From: Cyanobium sp. FACHB-13342
GTDB lineage: Bacteria > Cyanobacteriota > Cyanobacteriia > PCC-6307 > Cyanobiaceae
Direction: 5' to 3'
DNA length: 64,000 nt
Assembly (NCBI RefSeq): GCF_014697415.1
Contig: NZ_JACJRT010000008.1
Span: 62,001 to 126,000, forward strand
The notes beneath the pieces were generated by a model. That model saw only the letters and a program-made list of their open reading frames with translations, was not told the origin of the DNA and did no database searches. How positions within the stretch are numbered: position 1 is the first letter of the stretch; the number at the start of each line of letters is the position of its first letter. The translations under genes were made by a program, and so were the position numbers. Positions 50,727 to 60,170 of the stretch are shown in pieces.

Positions 50727-51336
50727 CGAGCCCCATGCCGCGTCGGTAGGCCGGGCGGGTCTGGGTGGCAGCAATGGTGGCCTGCACGTTGGGCCAGGGG
50801 CTGAGGTCGATCTGGGGAAAGAAGATCGGCAGGTAGGCCAGATAGGCGTTCACTGCGCAGTCGGCCACCGTCCAGCTTGGGGTGCCCCAGGGGCCCGCCA
50901 GCAGGGAGCGCCCCCCTTCCAGCAGGCCATCGAGCACCCCCATCAGCCTGGGGAATTCCCGTTCCCGATTGGCTGGCACAAACAGGGCCACCGCCAGGGT
51001 GGCATTGGCAAACAGGATCCACTGGGTGGCCAGGGCCCGTTGGGCGGCCACCTCCGCTGGGGTGCCCTGGAAGTCGTGGCCGTGGTGATCGGCGAGATGC
51101 AGCAGGATCGCGCCGCTTTCAAACAGCTGCAGGGGCTCCCCGCCTGGCGCCCTCAGGCTGTCGTCCACCAGGGCGGGCACCTTGGCAAAGGGGTTGATCG
51201 CCGTGAAGGGGGGCTGCTGGTGCTCGCCAGCCTCCATGTCGAGCTGGATCCAGTCGTAGGCCAGCCCCTTCTCCTCCAGATACCAGCGGGGCATGGAGGC
51301 GCGGCTGCGGGCGCCGCCGTACAGCGTCAGGCCCAT
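50716..51336 (-). CDS. glutathione S-transferase family protein
   Basis: A 206-residue GST. The N-terminal thioredoxin-like part reads MGLTLYGGARSRASMPRWYL with INPFAKVPALVDDSLR (cis-Pro before Ala-Leu) and LQLFESGAILLHLADHHG (Glu-Ser of the glutathione gamma-glutamyl site). The C-terminal helical domain has TPSWTVADCAVNAYLAYLPI, with the conserved Asp of the GST N-capping motif. The active-site Ser is plausible at SRAS. The ATG at 51336 is used. It overlaps pdeM by 11 bases, so the two are co-transcribed; substrate unknown. Confidence 0.9.
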   Translation of the reverse strand: MGLTLYGGARSRASMPRWYLEEKGLAYDWIQLDMEAGEHQQPPFTAINPFAKVPALVDDSLRAPGGEPLQLFESGAILLHLADHHGHDFQGTPAEVAAQRALATQWILFANATLAVALFVPANREREFPRLMGVLDGLLEGGRSLLAGPWGTPSWTVADCAVNAYLAYLPIFFPQIDLSPWPNVQATIAATQTRPAYRRGMGLDGR

Positions 51337-51394
51337 GGAGGTCTGTGGTGATGGGAGGTTTGTCAGTCTCGCTGGCCGCTGTGGGTTGGTCCAG

Positions 51395-51517
51395 TTACGG
51401 GTTTGCTGAACCGGCGTCACGTCGTCTGAACACACTTCTGATCCACCAGAGCTGAAGAGCGCCAACGACCAGGGCGACCAGACCCAAGTGGAGGTATCCA
51501 GAGTTCAGTTGCTCCAT
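51395..51517 (-). CDS. 40-residue single-pass membrane protein
   Basis: I do not recognise it. After MEQLNSGYLH there is one hydrophobic helix of about 17 residues (LGLVALVVGALQLWWI) and a basic end, RSVFRRRDAGS. Its ATG shares bases with the stop of the 63-residue gene upstream (TGATG), so the two are translationally coupled. The Trp-Ile-Arg-Ser-x-Phe-Arg-Arg end resembles the Trp-Arg-Leu-Thr-Ser-Leu-Phe-Arg-Lys segment of its neighbour, suggesting related roles or a duplication. Confidence 0.6.
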   Translation of the reverse strand: MEQLNSGYLHLGLVALVVGALQLWWIRSVFRRRDAGSANP

Positions 51518-51708
51518 CACACCGCCTGCTGGTCCTTCTCCCAGATTCGCTCGAGCATCTGCCGCATCCGCTCCGTTCTGGAGGGGATCCCCAGGACGCG
51601 CTTGCGGAACAGGGAGGTCAGGCGCCAGAACTTGACCCCTGCCGCAAGGGCAAAGACCAGCCAGGGCACCAGCATCCAGAGGGGGTTGGGCATCACGCTG
51701 CTTTCCAT
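51517..51708 (-). CDS. 63-residue single-pass membrane protein
   Basis: No family recognised. It has a short start (MESSVMPNPLW), a hydrophobic helix at about residues 12-28 (MLVPWLVFALAAGVKFW), then a basic RLTSLFRKRVLGIPSRTERM and a helical tail (RQMLERIWEKDQQAV) likely on the cytoplasmic side. Coupled to the 40-residue gene by TGATG. Together they look like a two-subunit small membrane complex. The ATG at 51708 is the first in frame; MPN at residue 6 is another option. Confidence 0.6.
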   Translation of the reverse strand: MESSVMPNPLWMLVPWLVFALAAGVKFWRLTSLFRKRVLGIPSRTERMRQMLERIWEKDQQAV

Positions 51709-51836
51709 GGGCTCCAGAGCAACGGCCCACTCCCCATCGTATGCAGAAACCGCATTGGCGTCTGCAATTCTTGATCTTAAGGCCGCTGAAATTCATTCTC
51801 CCGTTATGGTCAAAATTAATGGGACCCGTCTTTGCG

Positions 51837-52745
51837 ATGGTTCACCCGGATACACTTGCCTTGTTTGACCACGTCCAGTGGTTGAGGACTGGCCAGCGCG
51901 CGTCTGAAAAATTGCAGCGACACCAGTCGACGATTAGTCGTGCTGCCACCAGATGTGAGCAGGTTTTTGATGTAAAATTGGTTAAGGAGTCGGCTGAGTG
52001 GATTGTGTCTGGTAACTCCGAACTGCTTGATGCAGAGCGCAGGGTGCACCAACGCTGGCGATGGCAAAAGGGTCACCCCCTACGGTTTGATTGCCAGCAC
52101 TGGGTTCGCGATTTTTATTCCTCTCTGGTCCTTGGGGATTGGACCACGGGAAATATGAACTATCTAGAGTATGGGCGCCCGCGCTACCTGCTTCGATCCT
52201 CCATTATTGATGCCTGGCTGTGCTCCTTGCCTGATGCCCCTGATGATGCCGACCTGCATACTTTTGAATTGTGCTCAATGCCAACCCTGTTGGTGGCAAA
52301 GCAAAACCATCCCCTCTTTTTGCTCGGAGACTCGTTAACGATTGATGATGCAGTGCGGTTTCCGGTGCTTCCGTTGCCGGCTCAGGCATTTCCAGTGTTT
52401 CAGGATATTTTTTATGGCATGGGCTTTTCCCATAGCCGTGCATTACTCAGCCATGGGTTGTTGGGGGATGCCATGGACGCGGGGTTGCCCGTTGAGGATC
52501 TTTATTTGGGTGTTGCCTCACCGCTGACTCTTGGCACTTATGAGTCAGATTGGAAGCCGCTTCCTCTGGTGATTCCCATTGCCGTCGGCGATGCCTTGGT
52601 TGTGCGCTCTGACTATGCAACCCATCCCAGAACCAGGGATTTGGTCTCAAGACTCCTCTTCCACCTTGAGCTGAAGGCAGGCGGTGTCAAAGATGTTCGC
52701 ATTGTCAGCATGCAGCCTTCGTTGTTCACGGCCCATGTTCCCTGA
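51837..52745 (+). CDS. LysR-type regulator-like protein in AT-richer DNA
   Basis: A 302-residue protein like LysR-type regulators. The N-terminal helix-turn-helix includes LALFDHVQWLRTGQRASEKL and QRHQSTISRAATRCEQVF (Gln-Ser-Thr-Ile-Ser-Arg matching the recognition helix QSSxSR). The rest is a periplasmic-binding-like effector domain (LELCSMPTLLVAKQNHPLFL-like FELCSMPTLLVAKQNHPLFL, then ITIDD and VVRSDYATHP). The closest relative visible is the protein at 62826-63710, which shares Trp-Leu-Arg-x-Gly-Gln and Gln-Ser-x-x-Ser-Arg and an ERRVHQ helix. The DNA here is visibly AT-richer than neighbours, with many A/T-ending codons, suggesting transfer. I chose the ATG at 51837 because the frame before it reads as noise. 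Confidence 0.75.
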   Translation: MVHPDTLALFDHVQWLRTGQRASEKLQRHQSTISRAATRCEQVFDVKLVKESAEWIVSGNSELLDAERRVHQRWRWQKGHPLRFDCQHWVRDFYSSLVLGDWTTGNMNYLEYGRPRYLLRSSIIDAWLCSLPDAPDDADLHTFELCSMPTLLVAKQNHPLFLLGDSLTIDDAVRFPVLPLPAQAFPVFQDIFYGMGFSHSRALLSHGLLGDAMDAGLPVEDLYLGVASPLTLGTYESDWKPLPLVIPIAVGDALVVRSDYATHPRTRDLVSRLLFHLELKAGGVKDVRIVSMQPSLFTAHVP

Positions 52746-52767
52746 TTTGTAGGTTCGATCTCCTTGT

Positions 52768-53937
52768 CTATGGTCCCATGGGCAAGCTGTGGCGGCGCTG
52801 CCAGCGGCGGCGTTCCAGCTGGGAGCTGGGTTGGTTGCCATCGGCTGAGCGGCCGCGTAGCAGAAAGGCTTCAATGGAACCGTGGCCTTTGAGGGCCACG
52901 TTGCCGCGGATGTCGCAGCGGAACCGCGGTGGTAGCAGTCGTCTGGTTTCCACCGAGATCTGAATTTCGCCAGGGATGCCGGTTGACTCCATCCGACTGG
53001 CCACGTTGACGCTGTCACCCCAGAGGTCGTAGGCGTATTTGCGATGGCCGATCACCCCGGCCACCACCGGTCCGGTATGGATGCCGATGCGGATGTCCAT
53101 CGTCACGCCCTCCTCTTGCACCACCTTGTTGTGGGTGGCGAGCATGTCGAGGGCGAGGTCGGCAATCCGTTCGGCATGGTCTTCCGTGGCGAGGGGCACC
53201 CCGGCCGCCGCCATGTAGGAATCGCCAATGGTTTTGATTTTCTCGACGCCCCGCTGATCACAGAGTTCATCAAAGCAGCGGAAGATATGGTCGATCAGGG
53301 ACACCACCCTGTGGGCATCCATGTGGCTGGCAATCTCCGTGAAGCCCACCATGTCGCTGAACAGGATGGTGGCGGAGGGGTGGTAGTCGTAAATCGTTCC
53401 CTCCTCACCTTTGATGCGCTCGACGATCACATCGGGCAGCATGTTGTGGAGCAGGGCTTCGGCCTTGGCCTTTTCATCCTTGAGGGCGTCAAACAGTTCA
53501 TCGCGGCTGAGTTCGGTGAAGATCGCGCCGATCTGCTGCACCTGGTTGTCGGTGGGCGTCTGCCAGAGCTTGATGGGAATGATGTAGTCATGCCGATTGG
53601 CGCGGTTCTGACTGCTCACCCCGATGGAGTCGCGCACGATCACCTGCTGGAGATGGGGCGGCAGGGGGTAATCCACCCCATCGGCGATGAGGCGCACCAG
53701 CAGTTGGGCGGTTTGGGCTGCGGACGCTTCGGGGGCTTGCAGGTAGAGCTCGATCGCCGCCTCCGCCTGCCAGTGCAGAAACCAGCGCAGGGCATCGGAA
53801 ATCAAGGCTAGGCAGGGAATGAGCTGGGTTTCCCGGGCCTCCAGCATCCCCAGGATGCGCAGCATCTTGTGGCGGGTCTCCTCCAGGGAGGCGTCCCGCT
53901 GCATGTCCACCCGACCAAGCGCAATTAGTGTTGACAT
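52768..53937 (-). CDS. class III adenylate cyclase, stressosome-linked
   Basis: A 389-residue soluble cyclase. The catalytic domain (about residues 185-345) keeps both metal Asp (ATILFSDMVGFTEIASHM, Asp195; KIKTIGDSYMAAAG, Asp239). The ATP-specifying Lys is in EKIKTIGD (Lys235) and the Asp in RKYAYDLWGDSVNVASRMES (Asp304), with transition-state Asn311 and Arg315 following. That pattern predicts ATP, not GTP, as substrate. A helical linker (KDEKAKAEALLHNMLPDV) comes before it. The first 165 residues form a mostly helical domain of no recognised family, a candidate for the RsbT or stressosome input. It overlaps the RsbT-X gene by 13 bases, so it is the last gene of the operon. It converges with the LysR-like gene. 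Confidence 0.93.
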   Translation of the reverse strand: MSTLIALGRVDMQRDASLEETRHKMLRILGMLEARETQLIPCLALISDALRWFLHWQAEAAIELYLQAPEASAAQTAQLLVRLIADGVDYPLPPHLQQVIVRDSIGVSSQNRANRHDYIIPIKLWQTPTDNQVQQIGAIFTELSRDELFDALKDEKAKAEALLHNMLPDVIVERIKGEEGTIYDYHPSATILFSDMVGFTEIASHMDAHRVVSLIDHIFRCFDELCDQRGVEKIKTIGDSYMAAAGVPLATEDHAERIADLALDMLATHNKVVQEEGVTMDIRIGIHTGPVVAGVIGHRKYAYDLWGDSVNVASRMESTGIPGEIQISVETRRLLPPRFRCDIRGNVALKGHGSIEAFLLRGRSADGNQPSSQLERRRWQRRHSLPMGP

Positions 53938-55085
53938 CGCATCACCAGCACACTGGCGTCGTCACTGCGCGAGGCCTGGCTCATCAGCAGATCGGCGAGG
54001 GCCGCCAGCGGCAGGAGGGGGTCGGTGTGTTGTCGAAGCTGGCGCACCTGGGATTCCCGCAGGCCGTCGGAACATTGCACCACGGTGTCGGTGTCGTGCA
54101 GGGGAAAGTGCTGCACCATCGGCGTTGGGAATCGATCGCCCAGTTGGCCATCCCGGCTCACGCCGGTCCATCCCCGGGGCTTGAACTGCAGGATGCGCGT
54201 GTTGCCGATGCCGCTGAACCACAGGTCCCGCCGCTGCCCATCCACCAGGGAGAGTCCGATGGCCGCGCCGCGGCTGCCACAGGCCCGCTCGTGGGCGGTG
54301 CGCAACAGGTCGGTCAACCACTCCTCTGCCGGACACGCGGGTGCAAGGGGTGGGCCCGACCCAGATCCCGCAGCACTGGTCAGGGTCGTAAAGCGCTGCT
54401 GCAACGCTTCCACCACGGCACAGGCCACCGCATGGGCGTCGGGTCCATGGCCGCAGCCATCCACCACACCCAGCAACCACAGGTCCCCCTGCTGGAGGGC
54501 CAGCACCTGGTCGCCGCTGACACGCTCCGGATAGCAGGCCCGGATCCGTTGTTCGAGTTTCAGCTGGCAGGGCGCGTGGACCACCGAGGTTTCGGGGAGG
54601 GGCTCTGGATTGGGTTCGAGCCGGGGCCCAGCTGAGGGGAGAATCGTGGTGCGTCGGCTGCCTGTCTGGGGGGGCTCCTGCCGCACCCAGCGCAGGGCGC
54701 GCACCTCGGTGCCTTCGCCAGGGCCGGTGATGATGCCCAGCTCATCGGTCATCCGCTTCACCGCCGGCAGCCCGAGCCCGAGGGTGTTGCCGGTGGTGTA
54801 GTGCTCCTGCAGGGCCCGGTCCAGGTCGGGAATGCCGGGGCCCTGGTCGGCGGCCTCCACCAGGATGCCAACGCGATGGCCATCTTCCACCTGGCTGACC
54901 CGGATGCTGCCCTGCTGGCCGTACTTGAGGATGTTGGTGCCCAGTTCGGCGATCACCGTGCCCAGGGCGGTCCGGTCGAGGGCACTGAGGCCGGGGTAGT
55001 AATCCTCCCGCTGCAGCGACACTGCTGCGATCTGCACGTCGGAACGCCGCTGGATTCGGTACTGGCGGGTGTTGACGTTATCCAT
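53925..55085 (-). CDS. RsbT-type kinase fused to RsbX/PP2C-type phosphatase
   Basis: A 386-residue fusion. Residues about 1-135 form an RsbT/SpoIIAB-like GHKL serine kinase: TVIAELGTNILKYGQQGSIR (N box with Glu and Asn), VEAADQGPGIPDLDRALQEH (G1), and NTLGLGLPAVKRMTDELGI (G2). After a Pro-rich linker (about 136-170), residues 185-386 form a PPM/SpoIIE-type phosphatase: LGVVDGCGHGPDAHAVACAV (Asp-Gly), LWFSGIGNTRILQFKPRG, TVVQCSDGLRESQV (Ser-Asp-Gly) and SRSDDASVLVMRCQH (Asp-Asp). In Bacillus the two activities are separate proteins, RsbT (kinase that leaves the stressosome and switches on a partner) and RsbX (phosphatase that resets it). It overlaps rsbS by 8 bases and the cyclase by 13. Confidence 0.92.
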   Translation of the reverse strand: MDNVNTRQYRIQRRSDVQIAAVSLQREDYYPGLSALDRTALGTVIAELGTNILKYGQQGSIRVSQVEDGHRVGILVEAADQGPGIPDLDRALQEHYTTGNTLGLGLPAVKRMTDELGIITGPGEGTEVRALRWVRQEPPQTGSRRTTILPSAGPRLEPNPEPLPETSVVHAPCQLKLEQRIRACYPERVSGDQVLALQQGDLWLLGVVDGCGHGPDAHAVACAVVEALQQRFTTLTSAAGSGSGPPLAPACPAEEWLTDLLRTAHERACGSRGAAIGLSLVDGQRRDLWFSGIGNTRILQFKPRGWTGVSRDGQLGDRFPTPMVQHFPLHDTDTVVQCSDGLRESQVRQLRQHTDPLLPLAALADLLMSQASRSDDASVLVMRCQH

Positions 55086-55443
55086 CGCATGCCTCCAGGG
55101 CGCTCGCCATGTCGACCCGGAAGATGAGGTCGTCGATGGTGATCGGCATCTGGCAGAGATAGGCGGCGATGCCCGGGCGGATCCCCATCAGCACCGTGGG
55201 CACACCGAGCACCTCATTGGTCTGCACCAGGTGGCGCAGCACCTGGAACTCGGCCAGGTCCAGCAGGGTGACGGTGCTGAGGTTGAGGATCACCCCCCGG
55301 ATGCTGTCTTCCGTCACCCGCTGAGTTACATCGGCCACGATCCGGTTCAGCACCGCATCGGAGAGTTCGCCTGGCAGCGACACCACCAGCAGGCCATCCA
55401 CCGCCGCCATGGAGGTTCGGATATCGATGGCGGGGCTGGCCAT
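55078..55443 (-). CDS. RsbS-like STAS-domain stressosome protein lacking the usual phosphoserine
   Basis: A 121-residue single STAS domain. It aligns with RsbS over GVILNLSTVTLLDLAEFQVL and GVPTVLMGIRPGIAAYLCQM. In Bacillus RsbS the phosphorylated residue is Ser59 in the VDMIDSF segment; here the aligned segment is VTLLDLA, with Leu63 in that place. Other nearby hydroxyl residues (Ser56, Thr57, Thr59) might substitute. RsbS normally forms the core of the stressosome and holds RsbT until it is phosphorylated. It sits 11 bp after the RsbR-like gene and overlaps rsbT-X by 8 bases. The ATG at 55443 is used. Confidence 0.9.
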   Translation of the reverse strand: MASPAIDIRTSMAAVDGLLVVSLPGELSDAVLNRIVADVTQRVTEDSIRGVILNLSTVTLLDLAEFQVLRHLVQTNEVLGVPTVLMGIRPGIAAYLCQMPITIDDLIFRVDMASALEACDG

Positions 55444-55454
55444 GATTGCCCCCT

Positions 55455-56834
55455 CTATCGATAGGTGCGTTGCCGGTGCAAGGTGGGTTGCTGGGAGCGG
55501 AAGGGCATCCGTCCCCGCTGGAGATCCAGCACGCCCATTTCGGCCAGGCAGGTGGAGAAGGCATCCTTCAAGGTGGCGGTCGTGCGCAGCTCGCTGATGT
55601 CCACGCCCAGTTCCACAATGGTGTGGGCAATGGAAGAGGACACCCCGGAGACCAGGGTTTCGCAGCCCATGATTCGGGTGGCCTTGGTGATCTTGATCAG
55701 TTGATTGGCCACGGCGGTGTCCACCGTGGGCACTCCGCTGATGTCGAGAATGAACATCTTGGAGCCGGTCTGACTGATGCGGTCGAGGGTCTTGCGCATC
55801 ACGTCGTCGGTGCGGGTGGAATCCACGATTCCCACCAGCGGGAGGAGCAGGATTTCATCCCAGATCGGGGTCACTGGGGTTGACATCTCCTGCAGGGTGC
55901 GATCCAGCTCTAGGCGCACCCGCTCGGCTTCCCGGGACTCCTCCAGGGCCGATTCCAGTTGGGCCGATTTCGCTCCCATCAGTGCCGCGGCCTGGTTGAA
56001 CTGGGCGGTGATGTCGTAGGCGAACTTCACCACCCGCACCAACGTGCCGCTGGCATCAACAATGGGGTTGTAGGACGCCTCCAACCACACTGGCTCACCG
56101 GATTTGGTGATCCGTTGGAATTGTCCCCGCTGGCTCTCGCCGCGGGAGAGGGCTGTCCAAAACTGTTTGTAGGCCGGGGAGGACGCCTCCTCCTTGGTGA
56201 CGAACAGGCGATGGTGCTGGCCACTGATCTCCTCTTCGCCGTAACCCAACACCTGCAGCATGATGGGGTTGGCCCGCAGGATGGTGCCATCGGGAGCAAA
56301 TTCGATCACCGCCATTGAGCGCTCAATGGCCGCAATGGTGCTGGCATCGATGGCACTTCTGTTCTTGGTTTCGGTGATGTCGGTGGCCAGCCCGATCACG
56401 CTCTCGGGCTTGCCGTTGCTGGTCAACACCGGGCTGAAGCTGGTCTGGAGCCACACCTCCTGGCCGTCCTTGTTGCGGTGCAGGAACTCGCCCCCTTGGG
56501 AGTTTCCCTTGGCGAGGCTGGCCCACAGCTGTTTCCATTTCGCAGAGCGCGTTTCCTCCGGATCGAGGACCAGGCTGTAGGGCTGGCCGATCACGTCGGC
56601 TTCGCTGGAGCCGATCAACGCCAGAAAGTTGGCGTTGGCACTTAACACCGTGCCCTGGAGATCAAATTCGGCCACGGCGTTGGAGCGATCGAGAGCTGTC
56701 CAGAGCGCCAGGGCCCGGCCGTTGTCGATCGTGGTCGGTGATTTGGGTGTTGGGGTTTTGGTTGTGGATGTCTTCGCTGTGGATGTCTTGCTTGTGGATG
56801 TCTTGGCTGTCGATCGCTTGCCTGTCGTTGTCAC
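55455..56834 (-). CDS. RsbR-like stressosome sensor, PAS-PAS-STAS
   Basis: About 459 residues. The N-terminus is a repetitive Lys/Thr/Ser segment (KTSTx units). Two PAS domains follow: first NAVAEFDLQGTVLSANANFL to VIGLATDITETKN, second AVIEFAPDGTILRANPIMLQ to VVKFAYDITAQFN. A coiled helix (QLESALEESREAERVRLELD) links them to a C-terminal STAS domain: KMFILDISGVPTVDTAVANQ and ETLVSGVSSSIAHTIVELGV. Both Thr sites of RsbRA that RsbT phosphorylates (Thr171 and Thr205 in Bacillus) have counterparts: Thr in VDTAV (codon 55716-55718) and in AHTIV (codon 55620-55622). PAS domains suggest redox, light or small-molecule sensing. The start is taken as a GTG at 56834; a TTG at 56891 is the alternative. 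Confidence 0.9.
   Translation of the reverse strand: MTTTGKRSTAKTSTSKTSTAKTSTTKTPTPKSPTTIDNGRALALWTALDRSNAVAEFDLQGTVLSANANFLALIGSSEADVIGQPYSLVLDPEETRSAKWKQLWASLAKGNSQGGEFLHRNKDGQEVWLQTSFSPVLTSNGKPESVIGLATDITETKNRSAIDASTIAAIERSMAVIEFAPDGTILRANPIMLQVLGYGEEEISGQHHRLFVTKEEASSPAYKQFWTALSRGESQRGQFQRITKSGEPVWLEASYNPIVDASGTLVRVVKFAYDITAQFNQAAALMGAKSAQLESALEESREAERVRLELDRTLQEMSTPVTPIWDEILLLPLVGIVDSTRTDDVMRKTLDRISQTGSKMFILDISGVPTVDTAVANQLIKITKATRIMGCETLVSGVSSSIAHTIVELGVDISELRTTATLKDAFSTCLAEMGVLDLQRGRMPFRSQQPTLHRQRTYR
56761..56820. repeat. four tandem 15-bp units in the RsbR-like gene
   Basis: Units begin gttgtggatgtcttc, gctgtggatgtcttg, cttgtggatgtcttg, gctgtcgatcgcttg; a degenerate fifth follows. 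They encode the five-residue repeat Lys-Thr-Ser-Thr-x near the N-terminus, giving a flexible basic arm. Confidence 0.85.
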
Positions 56835-56912
56835 GCGCCCATCGTCCGGAATCTGACTGTGTTCTGGAACCGCAGGCGACGCTTCAGGCAAACCGCTTGG
56901 TTCTCTTAAGGC

Positions 56913-57176
56913 TCAGGGGGTGCGGCAGAGGCGGCGCAGATCGGCGCTGCGATACAGGCTGTGCGTATCACCGGGCTGGGCTTCGGCGAACCGTTGGTTT
57001 TTGGTGAGGCCATTGCCGGCACCCAGGCGGTTGGCGAGGGTGGCCTTCTCCGCCCCGTGGGCCCCTTGCCAGCGGGCGCAGAGCTCCAGGTTTCCCGGCG
57101 GAAGGGCTGCTCCGGGCCGGGCCAGGGCAAGTCCAAACCCCAGTGCAAGGAACGCCAGCTTGGCGGCGGGGCTCAT
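56913..57176 (-). CDS. small secreted protein, 87 residues
   Basis: I recognise no family. A signal peptide (MSPAAKLAFLALGFGLALA, probable cleavage after PGAA) is followed by about 60 residues, LPPGNLELCARWQGAHGAEK, LANRLGAGNGLTKNQRFAEA and SLYRSADLRRLCRTP, with two Cys that may pair. The ATG at 57176 overlaps the stop of the GGCT-like gene (ATGA), and its stop lies 78 bp before the RsbR GTG start. It therefore sits inside the diguanylate cyclase-stressosome run. It could be a periplasmic component tied to either neighbour, but nothing shows which. Confidence 0.6.
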   Translation of the reverse strand: MSPAAKLAFLALGFGLALARPGAALPPGNLELCARWQGAHGAEKATLANRLGAGNGLTKNQRFAEAQPGDTHSLYRSADLRRLCRTP

Positions 57177-57622
57177 CGCAGCGATTCCGAGCGCTGCCAG
57201 CGGGGGTGGCGCGGACCGCACCAGTGGCCATCGGCAATCCGGGGCGCGTGGCGCACCTGGGTTGGCCGTCCCAGGTAAACCCAGGCGTCCTGTCCGTCCC
57301 TCAGGCGCAGCCAGTGGCGCTCGAACAGGCGCGGGGTGCCTTCGAGGCGATCCAACTGGCTCAGGCTGGCCTGGGGGATCCGGTAGAGCTCCCCCTGCAG
57401 CGCCGGCCACCCCGGGGAGGAGGGTTCCCCGGCATGGCGAACGGCCATCGGGAAAGGCCCCAGGTCGAACAGCTGCACCCCCTCGAGTTGGCCCTCGCCC
57501 ACCCTGGTGGCCCCCGCCAGCCAGTGGTGGTTGGGCTGGCCCCGCTTGAGGCTGCCGTAGACAAACACCGTGGTTGTGCCTTGGCCGGTGATAATCGTTG
57601 TTGATGCTTCCGTTTCAGCCAT
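57173..57622 (-). CDS. gamma-glutamylcyclotransferase-family protein
   Basis: A 149-residue GGCT-like protein (BtrG/AIG2-like fold). The substrate loop is TVFVYGSLKRGQPNHHWLAG (YGSLxxGxxNH). GELYRIPQASLSQLDRLEG carries the family Glu in GELYRI, and RLRDGQDAWVYLGRP follows. Members form 5-oxoproline from gamma-glutamyl compounds, or act on related substrates in antibiotic synthesis; the substrate is not evident here. The ATG at 57622 is used (a longer frame would run into the diguanylate cyclase gene). It overlaps that gene by 8 bases and the small secreted gene by 4, so all are probably co-transcribed. Confidence 0.85.
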   Translation of the reverse strand: MAETEASTTIITGQGTTTVFVYGSLKRGQPNHHWLAGATRVGEGQLEGVQLFDLGPFPMAVRHAGEPSSPGWPALQGELYRIPQASLSQLDRLEGTPRLFERHWLRLRDGQDAWVYLGRPTQVRHAPRIADGHWCGPRHPRWQRSESLR

Positions 57623-60170
57623 GACCATTGCCCTGCTCATCGCCCTGGCTGGCTCCCTGGTGCTGATGGCGGTGATCGTCAAGCGGCTCGAGCAGGCCTG
57701 AGGCAGGCTCCGGCATGGTTTGGTTGCCGTTGCAGAGCTGTACGGCGTTGCCTTTGTCGCGCTTTGCGGCATACATGGCGTTGTCGGCAGCGGTCAACAG
57801 CTCGGCGCTGCTGTTGCCATGCTCGGGGTACCGGGCGATGCCCACGCTGGCCGAGATGGCGATGGCTGGATCGAGCGTGTTGTAGGCAGCCCGGCTGGCC
57901 TCCACCAGTTTCCATCCCATCTTGAGCAGCTCGTCGGTGCTGCCCGCTTCCGGCACCAGCACCACGAATTCATCGCCGCCCTGGCGGCAGAGCAGGTCGC
58001 CGTCGCGGATCACCTGGCGAAACCGCTGCGCCACGATCTGCAGCACCTGATCCCCCACGTGGTGGCCGAAGCGGTCGTTGACGGGCTTGAAGCCATCGAG
58101 ATCGAGGTAGATCAGGGCCACCCCATGGCCATGGCGTTTGGCCAGGGCCAGCTGGCGCTCCAGCTGCTCCATGAGCATGGCGCGGTTGGCCAGGCCCGTG
58201 AGGGTGTCGTGCTGGGCCATGAAGCGCACCGCCTCCTCGGCCTGATGGCGCTCAGTCACGTCCTGCAGCATGCCCACGTAGTAGCGGGGTTGGAGATTTT
58301 CATCCCGCACCGTGGTGATGCTGAGGTGATGGCGACGGACCTCACCACTGCGCAGCCGATTCCAGATGTCGCCTTCCCAGAAGCCCTTCTGCAGCAGTCC
58401 ATCCCACATCGCCTTGTAGAAGGCAGCGTCGTGGCGGCCGGATTTGAGCAGGTTGGTGCGCTGCCCTTTGATTTCTGAAATCCGGTAGCCGGTGAGCTGG
58501 CTGAAGGAACTGTTGGCCTGCACGATGCGGCCCTCAGGATTGCTCACCACGATGGCCTGGCCGCTCTCTTCAAACACGGTCGAGGCCAGGGCCCGTTCCC
58601 GGCCTGCCTTTTCGCTGACGGCCAGGGCCTCCTTGGTGGCCAGATGGTTGCTGACCAGAATTCGGGTGACTAGGGCGGCGATGGCGCTGCCACTGACGCC
58701 GAGCAGGAGGTTGAGCCAGAACGCCGGACTGATTCCGTTTGGCCCCACAAGCTGGGGTGAGAGCTGTACCCCCACAAGCCAGGTGCGGCCGGCGATGTTG
58801 AGGCGCTCGTAGGACGGGTGCCGCACCTCATTCCGGCGCACGAGGTTCTTGTCATCGAAGAGGAGGTTTGGGGTGAGGGGCTGGTCGCCGTCGAACACCA
58901 GCACTCCGGTGCCATCCAGATCGGCGTTGTCCACCGTGTCCAAGGCACTCTTCACCAGATCCTTGAGGCGCAGGGGTGAATAGGTCCATCCCACCAGATG
59001 GCGCTTGTTGGCTTGCGTTGCCGCTCCCTTTTCGGCATACACCGGGAGATAGATCAAGGCTCCGCGCTGCAGGTCTTCGTCGGTTTCCTGAACCAGACGC
59101 ACCTTGCCGCTCAGGGCAGCGCGGCCTGATTCCGCTGCCCGCTGCATCGCTTCACGACGGATCGGCTCGGAGTACATGTCGAATCCAAAAGCTCTCTGGT
59201 TGCGCCAATCAAAGGGCTCGAGAAACTCAATGGCGCCGTAACCCTGGCGTGGGCCTGGAGGGCGCACGGAAAAGGCTGGGAACCCTTCGGATCGAATTCT
59301 GCGTTCAAAGCGGGTCAGTTCCGTGGCTGGAATCCAGCGGGCAAAACCAATTCCCTGGACCCCTTTCAATTCCCGCGTGTTGAGAATGACGGTTTCGTAA
59401 AAGGTGTTGAACTCATCGCGGTTGACTTCATTGGAGGCATTGAACAGGCCTGCCAGGGCGCCGAGAACTGAAATATCGATCTCCAGCTTGTTCTGAATGG
59501 CGTCTGTTACAGCCTCGAGAAGATTGCTTTCGATGCGGAGGTGCTCTTGGGCGCCGAAGCGGCGTGTCTGTTCGCTAATGGCTGCCGTGATCAGCAGTCC
59601 GCCTACCAAAACGATCCAGGGCAGCGCTGTGATTTTGGCGATCTTTTTCCAAGTCTTTCTGCAGGCATTGAGCCAGGATCTTCGTCGGTTGACGAGGTGT
59701 CGACGATCGGAAAGAAATTCATTTGTTGTTTGCCAATTCTGTTCGGCCTGGTCGATTTTTTTCTGAAGTTCTTCCAGTGAGATGCGGGTGCTGATGTCGC
59801 GGAAGACAAACAGGAAAGGATTCGGCTCTTCGGTGGGGATCGGCCGCCACTCCACTTCGAGGGCGCGGATCGGATCCCGGCTCAGGATTGCGGTGATGCG
59901 TCCGGTTTTGGTGATCCCGCCGCGGGTTTGCTCGATGGTGAGGATCGGTGCCCCAACGATGTCCAGCGGAAGAAGACTGTGCAGATCGTGTCCAAGGCTG
60001 GCCAGTCTCGCTCTGCCCACCAGGGCATCGAAGGGGGCGTTGCACCACTGCACCTCCCCAGCCTCATTGACCAGGACGAGCCCTTCGTCGATCTCGCCGA
60101 GGGCCGTGTCCAGGCGACCCATGGTGCGGCGCAATTCCGCGACCAAGGTGCCCGTGTCCATCAGAGCCAT
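57615..60170 (-). CDS. membrane diguanylate cyclase, PAS-TM-CHASE-TM-PAS-GGDEF
   Basis: An 851-residue sensor enzyme. PAS 1 is at about residues 20-130 (GLVLVNEAGEVQWCNAPFDA). Two membrane helices at about 183-200 (PWIVLVGGLLITAAIS) and 485-510 (FWLNLLLGVSGSAIAALV) bracket a CHASE-type periplasmic sensor domain (about 230-440, GVQGIGFARWIPATELTRFE). PAS 2 is at about 530-650 (IVVSNPEGRIVQANSSFSQL), and GGDEF at about 655-815 is intact in LLCRQGGDEFVVLVPEAG. A further tail of about 35 residues has Gln/Gly/His-rich sequence. It makes c-di-GMP in response to an external signal. Its stop overlaps the GGCT-like gene by 8 bases. DNA around 59,380-59,800 looks AT-richer than neighbours. Confidence 0.93.
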   Translation of the reverse strand: MALMDTGTLVAELRRTMGRLDTALGEIDEGLVLVNEAGEVQWCNAPFDALVGRARLASLGHDLHSLLPLDIVGAPILTIEQTRGGITKTGRITAILSRDPIRALEVEWRPIPTEEPNPFLFVFRDISTRISLEELQKKIDQAEQNWQTTNEFLSDRRHLVNRRRSWLNACRKTWKKIAKITALPWIVLVGGLLITAAISEQTRRFGAQEHLRIESNLLEAVTDAIQNKLEIDISVLGALAGLFNASNEVNRDEFNTFYETVILNTRELKGVQGIGFARWIPATELTRFERRIRSEGFPAFSVRPPGPRQGYGAIEFLEPFDWRNQRAFGFDMYSEPIRREAMQRAAESGRAALSGKVRLVQETDEDLQRGALIYLPVYAEKGAATQANKRHLVGWTYSPLRLKDLVKSALDTVDNADLDGTGVLVFDGDQPLTPNLLFDDKNLVRRNEVRHPSYERLNIAGRTWLVGVQLSPQLVGPNGISPAFWLNLLLGVSGSAIAALVTRILVSNHLATKEALAVSEKAGRERALASTVFEESGQAIVVSNPEGRIVQANSSFSQLTGYRISEIKGQRTNLLKSGRHDAAFYKAMWDGLLQKGFWEGDIWNRLRSGEVRRHHLSITTVRDENLQPRYYVGMLQDVTERHQAEEAVRFMAQHDTLTGLANRAMLMEQLERQLALAKRHGHGVALIYLDLDGFKPVNDRFGHHVGDQVLQIVAQRFRQVIRDGDLLCRQGGDEFVVLVPEAGSTDELLKMGWKLVEASRAAYNTLDPAIAISASVGIARYPEHGNSSAELLTAADNAMYAAKRDKGNAVQLCNGNQTMPEPASGLLEPLDDHRHQHQGASQGDEQGNGHG

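Follow-up and report, generated by a model that had tools for sequence, protein, structure and literature searches.

A conserved RsbTX-type stressosome operon in Cyanobium with a putative cAMP output and an unrecognised pseudokinase domain

In stressosomes, RsbR and RsbS form a core of STAS domains, and where RsbR has PAS domains these sense stress. Quin and colleagues reportedly described, in 2012, a stressosome of Moorella thermoacetica that comes with a diguanylate cyclase, MtG (work cited in PMC4976288 and PMC12143880). In Vibrio, the genes of the RSTX stressosome are followed by those of a two-component output, VvD1/VvD2 (PMC9237108, PMC10014275); for the V. vulnificus outputs, the relevant passages of PMC9237108 state that no RsbU_N domain was found and that binding of RsbT to VvD1 was not demonstrated. 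Here we describe an operon that likewise runs R-S-T-X and then output, located in a stretch of 64,000 nucleotides of Cyanobium sp. FACHB-13342 (contig NZ_JACJRT010000008.1, positions 62,001 to 126,000; hereafter the window, to which coordinates refer). The module is real and conserved, and we regard it as a new variant that combines an RsbTX-type stressosome, a cAMP output inferred from sequence, and an unrecognised pseudokinase domain that would couple the two. Our reading, to which we give a probability of roughly 55%, is that its four genes form one stressosome signalling operon in which an adenylate cyclase would be the effector, tied in by its N-terminal pseudokinase.

A stressosome operon with an adenylate cyclase gene

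The initial annotation had proposed that four adjacent genes, with gaps of 11 bp or overlaps, encode an RsbR with PAS-PAS-STAS architecture, an RsbS, an RsbT fused to RsbX and a class III adenylate cyclase. Open reading frames (ORFs), Pfam, PDB matches and a tree of GHKL domains bear out these assignments, and the features are as follows:

55455 to 56834, minus strand: RsbR-like sensor and core protein, PAS-PAS-STAS, 459 aa (start GTG at 56834; Pfam)
55078 to 55443, minus strand: RsbS-like single-STAS protein, 121 aa (Pfam STAS, E = 8.1e-9)
53925 to 55085, minus strand: RsbT-RsbX fusion (TX), 386 aa (Pfam, PDB-sequence comparison, GHKL tree)
54681 to 55085, minus strand: T domain of TX, residues ~1-135, GHKL Ser/Thr kinase; N-box and G-box residues kept, alpha-1 Arg absent
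53928 to 54548, minus strand: X domain of TX, residues ~180-386, PPM phosphatase; conserved Asp/Gly motifs present
52768 to 53937, minus strand: adenylate cyclase with predicted N-terminal pseudokinase domain, 389 aa (Pfam, profiles, model)
53473 to 53937, minus strand: cyclase residues 1-155, degenerate RsbT/RsbW-like GHKL domain ending in the signature SRDELF (profiles, model)
53872 to 53874, minus strand: invariant Arg22 of the cyclase N-domain
52855 to 53382, minus strand: class III cyclase catalytic domain, residues 186-361 (Pfam Guanylate_cyc, E = 9.6e-61)

The genes for RsbR and RsbS are separated by 11 nt, those for RsbS and TX overlap by 8 nt and those for TX and the cyclase by 13 nt; an alternative in-frame start of rsbR, a TTG at 56891, is possible. 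Pfam matches two PAS domains and a STAS domain (E = 2.4e-12) in RsbR, and HATPase_c (1.8e-10) and SpoIIE-type PPM (1.2e-11) domains in TX, the content of the whole module being limited to PAS, STAS, HATPase, SpoIIE and cyclase domains. By sequence, the nearest solved chain to the STAS domain of RsbR is Vibrio RsbR (7o0i, E = 2e-41) and those nearest to RsbS are the RsbS proteins of Listeria and Bacillus, while the X half of TX is nearest to Moorella 3zt9 and the T half to SpoIIAB. RsbR, RsbS, an RsbT kinase and an RsbX phosphatase are all present in one operon, with the last two fused, and the N-box and G-box of the T half and the PPM motifs of the X half are kept in the invariant columns of five TX proteins. 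As the initial annotation had stated, no gene for RsbU, RsbV, RsbW or SigB is found among the neighbouring ORFs.

In the GHKL-domain tree, 39 other X-fused GHKL domains form one clade that leaves out the T half of TX (FastTree support 0.97), and the label 'RsbT fused to RsbX' is therefore right. We rejected on this ground a reading of TX as a 'GHKL-X' protein like those of other modules, RsbT having been lost. The tree, like the alpha-1 Arg count given below, omits the comparison loci L026, L035, L036, L041 and L061, each a duplicate or near duplicate of another locus.

The catalytic domain of the last gene aligns to both halves of AC9 and keeps two Asp, a Lys/Asp pair and an Asn/Arg pair, which we take to serve metal binding, adenine recognition and catalysis, respectively. 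Both the gene order and the 8- and 13-nt overlaps recur in two further Cyanobium loci, L026 (the same as L033) and L027, where the gap between the genes for RsbR and RsbS is 14 nt. Pairwise dN/dS ranges from 0.05 to 0.24 across the four genes and is 0.044 for the catalytic domain.

The tandem PAS of RsbR (56022-56663, minus strand) has its best match in 3ewk, a tandem-PAS sensor protein (E = 6e-20) that is presumably the FAD-binding MmoS; from this match, RsbR may respond to a redox signal.

The N-terminal domain of the cyclase

No Pfam model matches the first ~150 residues of the cyclase at E <= 5, and Pfam and NCBIfam name its catalytic part alone. This N-domain is homologous to the starts of histidine kinases whose genes come after those for RsbT/RsbX in five other phyla. 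The homology extends over the full length of the domain (hhalign 95.7%, P = 1.1e-8; controls T, X, S and BN 0.1-0.2%), which a shared signature, [ST]-[RK]-[DENT]-x-L-[FL], closes directly before the catalytic part. At least 15 distinct TX loci lie outside Cyanobium (L115 included), and all of them have a histidine kinase directly after TX, six being called by Pfam (five HisKA-HATPase-REC-REC-Hpt, one plain kinase) and nine read from sequence. Among the 85 loci searched, a class III cyclase model built from three close sequences found a cyclase domain only in L026/L033 and L027.

The N-domain stands directly after TX in 18 of the 18 distinct TX loci and in a nineteenth locus; these 18 are what 21 fused rows reduce to once loci on the same contigs are merged (L026/L033, L028/L036 and L029/L041), with L046 (a T ORF and an X piece of 70 aa) and L025, a broken copy on a plasmid, excluded from TX counts. 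All ten module genomes hold exactly one copy of the domain, at the module. Scoring up to 10 candidates per genome turned up the domain in one cyanobacterial genome out of 386, two pseudomonadotal genomes out of 398 and two nitrospirotal genomes out of 375, always beside TX. For the cyclase as a stressosome output, an N-domain held in common with histidine-kinase outputs is better evidence than adjacency.

Co-transcription could still leave the cyclase outside stressosome control, its N-domain merely dimerising the enzyme or serving another partner-switch system. One more STAS match, two more SpoIIE-type phosphatases and a SiaABCD-like operon are indeed found elsewhere in the genome. However, all the N-domain copies examined adjoin RsbT/RsbX genes and the domain is common to two unrelated catalytic types, and we regard an uncoupled cyclase as highly doubtful.

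An AlphaFold2 model of the N-domain, produced from 15 sequences (pLDDT 77, pTM 0.68), has a beta-alpha-alpha-beta-beta...beta-alpha topology. In VIA-align its first 11 rows are all anti-sigma/GHKL kinases, including RsbW, UsfX, Rv1364c, SpoIIAB and SiaB (Z 10.2-8.4, the next row being at 6.0), and Foldseek places SpoIIAB and RsbW within its first nine rows. A profile of 18 N-domain sequences matched the intact GHKL domains of other stressosome outputs (hhalign 93.1%, P = 3.2e-7) and RsbT (87.3%, P = 3.8e-6), with GHKL-X at 23.4% and the controls X, S and CYC below 1%. A permissive search outside the N-domain family returned T-type GHKL ORFs as 21 of the 25 best, against 148 of 4669 overall, many of the 21 being near relatives of each other and L094 matching via its histidine-kinase ATPase. 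The Glu and Asn of the N-box are replaced by Asp and Trp in the cyclase of the window, as aligned by profile, and no DxGxG or GxGxG G-box can be read in residues 1-155. Since the fold and profiles match GHKL domains while N-box and G-boxes are missing, the N-domain appears to be a pseudokinase version of RsbT/RsbW. By profile and model, then, the cyclase carries a pseudokinase domain common to stressosome outputs. Pfam finds no RsbU_N domain in the protein, the predicted fold being alpha/beta GHKL; a model of the full-length cyclase from its single sequence has a pLDDT of 35.

Three Bacteroidota-type outputs (L112 9333-10994, L091 9387-11048 and L086 3627-5573) also start with a GHKL-like domain with a degraded N-box, perhaps an independent pseudokinase.

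Switch residues and proposed mechanism

Leu63 of RsbS (55255-55257) occupies the place of Ser59, the phospho-acceptor of B. subtilis. Our comparison comprised 77 rows from 86 sources (the 85 loci and the window), nine loci (L046, L054, L055, L072, L090, L094, L098, L105 and L109) having no RsbS ORF that passed the filter. The acceptor is absent from 18 of the 18 distinct TX-fused loci (Leu in 7, His in 5, Ala in 2, and Phe, Arg, Val and Met in 1 each), whereas unfused loci keep it in 56 cases out of 56 (Ser 54, Thr 2). Because the loss is common to the TX-fused subgroup, it marks a stressosome variant and not a non-member. Loss of the RsbS site has already been published for Vibrio brasiliensis (PMC4976288). 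Furthermore, the response of B. subtilis RsbS S59A to strong ethanol is 60% as robust as that of the wild type (PMC3944199), and a switch lacking the RsbS phosphosite is therefore plausible. In RsbR, Thr373 (55716-55718) is the equivalent of the B. subtilis phosphosite Thr205, and all 18 TX-fused rows, 16 of them distinct, retain this residue.

A second residue is missing from the kinase half. The alpha-1 Arg of T is present in 58 of 63 separate RsbT proteins and in 0 of 16 fused T domains; the five separate T without it are those of L046, L051 and L069 and the second T copies of L078 and L106. In our own reading of the alignment, its column would be that of Arg20 of SpoIIAB and Arg23 of RsbW. 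SpoIIAB Arg20 lies at the binding site of the STAS partner and mediates sigma binding (PMC10345196), and RsbW Arg23 bonds to RsbV (PMC7340262). Arg22 of the pseudokinase is invariant in 15 of 15 sequences, and the profile alignment puts it on this same column. A Vibrio module with separate T and X has Arg at the RsbS site, a T that by eye lacks the alpha-1 Arg, and the pseudokinase on a 1057-aa output; L051 and L069 have the pseudokinase, separate T and X and no T Arg. Given these exceptions, the trait most closely associated with the pseudokinase is a T domain that has lost its Arg, and not fusion of T to X.

These results bear directly on the stress-to-cAMP switch put forward in the initial annotation, in which neither the shared N-domain nor the missing RsbS phosphosite figured. 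The part of that proposal that finds support is a stressosome core with the cyclase as its own output, given the N-domain that the cyclase shares with histidine-kinase outputs in 15 other distinct RsbTX modules. What finds no support is the Bacillus-type route, in which stress leads RsbT to phosphorylate RsbS, and RsbT, once freed, acts on the cyclase. All four component types are present for such a switch, with kinase and phosphatase motifs intact; however, the RsbS acceptor is a Leu and is lost throughout the 18 distinct fused modules, T lacks the alpha-1 Arg, and the cyclase has no RsbU_N domain by Pfam, which makes this route very improbable.

In the mechanism that we propose, RsbR and RsbS would form the putative STAS core and the PAS domains of RsbR would sense stress. 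TX would write and erase phosphate, most likely on RsbR, as RsbR keeps the acceptor Thr and RsbS lacks the Ser. The cyclase would be linked to the core through its degenerate RsbT/RsbW-like GHKL domain, and the state of the core would set how the dimer-dependent enzyme is held, and hence the amount of cAMP, the sign of control being left free. For the docking step itself, in which the pseudokinase would take the position of an active kinase on the STAS surface and the core state would set cAMP output, we put the odds at a little short of even.

Another possible partner is the T half of TX. Here an RsbT/pseudokinase GHKL heterodimer would form, and T being on or off the core would gate the active cyclase homodimer, which would keep the earlier idea of a released kinase and give it a new target surface. 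RsbW does dimerise via beta-1/alpha-1 (PMC7340262), RsbT binds the N-domain of RsbU and orders a linker that dimerises the output, leaving RsbU active (PMC12143880), and the alpha-1 Arg of T is lost exactly where the pseudokinase appears. On the other hand, the Arg kept on the pseudokinase matches a STAS/sigma contact and not a dimer contact named in the passages of PMC10345196 and PMC7340262, and binding between VvRsbT and VvD1 went undetected according to PMC9237108. We consider a T-half partner unlikely.

Several observations weigh against an effector cyclase tied in by a pseudokinase. Foldseek taken alone is not significant (E >= 0.07, none below 0.001), and direct searches with the N-domain of Pfam (15 members) and of PDB sequences (profile) name no GHKL family. 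In a first hhalign comparison with 13 histidine-kinase N-domains, RsbT scored 0.4% and the intact GHKL domain found in two Bacteroidota outputs scored 27.5%, so that the profile link to GHKL depends on the wider sample of 18, to which the more diverse L069, L115 and L116 were added. L051 and L069 have the pseudokinase yet keep the RsbS Ser. The shared traits belong to essentially one clade, and their associations are therefore not independent events. Finally, only 3 of the 16 genomes examined from its genus have the module.

If the coupling by pseudokinase holds, the operon could represent a second class of stressosome, a generalisation that we offer tentatively and lean against rather than towards. 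In this class effectors would be held directly by the core through a pseudokinase of RsbT-like descent, and the Arg that contacts STAS partners would have moved from kinase to effector. The RsbS phospho-switch would be gone, kinase and phosphatase would be one protein, and dimeric catalytic domains (histidine kinase, adenylate cyclase) would plug in behind the pseudokinase, here for cAMP.

Distribution, origin and relation to known systems

The host genome (2.37 Mb) is near that of Cyanobium sp. T1B-Tous, whose TX is 91% identical to that of the window among the matches listed, in agreement with the cyanobacterial origin first assigned. Genome scans for TX and the N-domain scored 4 to 10 first-look candidates per genome, and absences from them are not strict. 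A TX-like protein was found in 5 of the 400 family genomes scanned: the genome itself, G547 (TX 91%) and G522 (TX 73%), all of the same genus and with an identical four-gene operon, and two genomes of other genera (TX 39% and 37%) in which a histidine kinase follows TX. Some of the 13 Cyanobium genomes without the module are only 82-88% complete. Of 386 genomes of the phylum, the genome itself alone gave a full-length TX match, six more matching the T part only. Among the best 80 of 502 relatives in a genome-collection scan with TX, fusions occur in Aeromonas, Vulcanococcus, Synechococcus, Thiosymbion, Magnetobacterium, Magnetominusculus, a Gemmatimonadete, Rhodobacter and others.

Three module layouts deserve mention. 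A plasmid of Aeromonas dhakensis (NZ_CP121799.1, L025) holds a copy of the Aeromonas-type module with R, S and TX in broken, overlapping frames. On a plasmid of the archaeon Halobaculum halophilum (NZ_CP058531.1, L118), an R-S-T-GHKL/X module precedes a PAS-containing output and a response regulator. A frequent layout, R-S-T-[GHKL-X]-[GHKL-histidine kinase], with three GHKL kinases per operon, is seen in L048-L050, L052, L058, L064, L070 and others.

In the window, 5.7 kb holding the module and a LysR-like gene lie at a site between GST and GGACT-like matches. In G239, G364 and G322 the flanking GST match is 180, 243 and 194 bp from the GGACT-like match, and since the same locus is empty in these three relatives, the module is an accessory one at a single site, whether by gain or by loss. 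The L027 module lies in the same neighbourhood; G531 has no synteny beyond the helicase and is uninformative on the empty site. The LysR-substrate-like protein (51741-52745, plus strand; below the Pfam cut-off) stands between the GST gene and the module, and is found in the same place in L026, but L027 and the three loci with an empty site gave no match to it. Directly upstream of the module is a gene for a CHASE-PAS-GGDEF diguanylate cyclase (57615-60170, minus strand), which in L027 is ~110 bp upstream of rsbR and places a c-di-GMP enzyme next to the cAMP module. A promoter and terminator scan returned no promoter-like and no minus-strand terminator-like sites, no tRNA was found in the 64-kb window, and repeats in 51000-58000 are short and chance-like in appearance.

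A tree of R-STAS, S and TX (21 rows, 600 columns) unites the three cyclase modules in one clade (100/100), nested inside the histidine-kinase type (97/98) and beside Aeromonas with modest support (87/83); the branch of the cyclase modules is long (1.27) and their exact placement unsure. A single clade of the Cyanobium modules and the picocyanobacterial histidine-kinase modules (L036, L041) was rejected (AU p 0.0007). From the nesting, the cyclase looks like an output swapped in behind a retained coupling domain. Such a swap would fit the argument of PMC12143880 for an 'exchangeable toolkit', in which RsbU_N, PAS and other input domains occur with phosphatases, histidine kinases and GGDEF enzymes.

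As for where cAMP might act, the genome has six cNMP-binding matches, and by eye only an MscS-type channel (L001 433-1911, on C6 at ~137 kb) has what we take to be a canonical cassette. The two CRP-type proteins resemble what is presumably NtcA and a divergent paralogue. The channel is the best candidate receptor, and it, not a CRP, may be where cAMP acts. C6 also encodes two other cyclase domains, 9-12 kb from this gene. The SiaABCD-like operon (L030 7818-10838, on C17 at ~18.8-21.8 kb) encodes HAMP-SpoIIE, DUF6272 (which we take to be of SiaB type), SiaC and GGDEF proteins, and gives this genome a second partner-switch system with a link to a cyclase.

The titles, abstracts and passages covered by our literature search contain no stressosome tied to an adenylate cyclase output and no description of the pseudokinase. 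The surveys of Pané-Farré (2005, 2017) may hold a cyclase example, since PMC10014275 credits them with second-messenger outputs. For the coupling of outputs outside Bacillus, a pseudokinase heading the effectors would be a concrete and testable answer, covering both the histidine-kinase family and the cAMP version. It also suggests a way in which one sensor complex can come to drive a new second messenger, through exchange of the catalytic domain while the coupling domain stays in place.

Compared with the stressosomes described so far, the operon shares with the RsbRST-RsbUVW-SigB system of Bacillus and Listeria its core proteins and the types of kinase and phosphatase, but it has no adjacent RsbU, RsbV, RsbW or sigma gene, lacks the RsbS Ser and has T and X fused. 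In the Vibrio RSTX system, T and X are separate, RsbR bears a globin sensor, and the output is a hybrid histidine kinase and not a cyclase. In a Vibrio relative, L116, RsbS is without the Ser, T is without the alpha-1 Arg, and the 1057-aa output has the same N-domain (E = 2.7e-5). With the Moorella thermoacetica stressosome the operon would share control of a second-messenger cyclase; MtG bears the four-helix domain RsbU_N and produces c-di-GMP (PMC12143880), whereas the Cyanobium protein has a predicted GHKL pseudokinase and a cAMP enzyme. Its catalytic domain, with the complete residue set, is like those of class III adenylate cyclases such as mycobacterial Cya (4p2m) and mammalian AC9, but the putative pseudokinase takes the place where a sensor or membrane part is usual. 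The fused-TX modules with a hybrid histidine kinase (Aeromonas, Magnetobacterium, Synechococcus CS-1328 and others) have the same core, the same fusion and the same N-domain on the output, and differ from the Cyanobium operon in the catalytic part, which in them is a histidine kinase.

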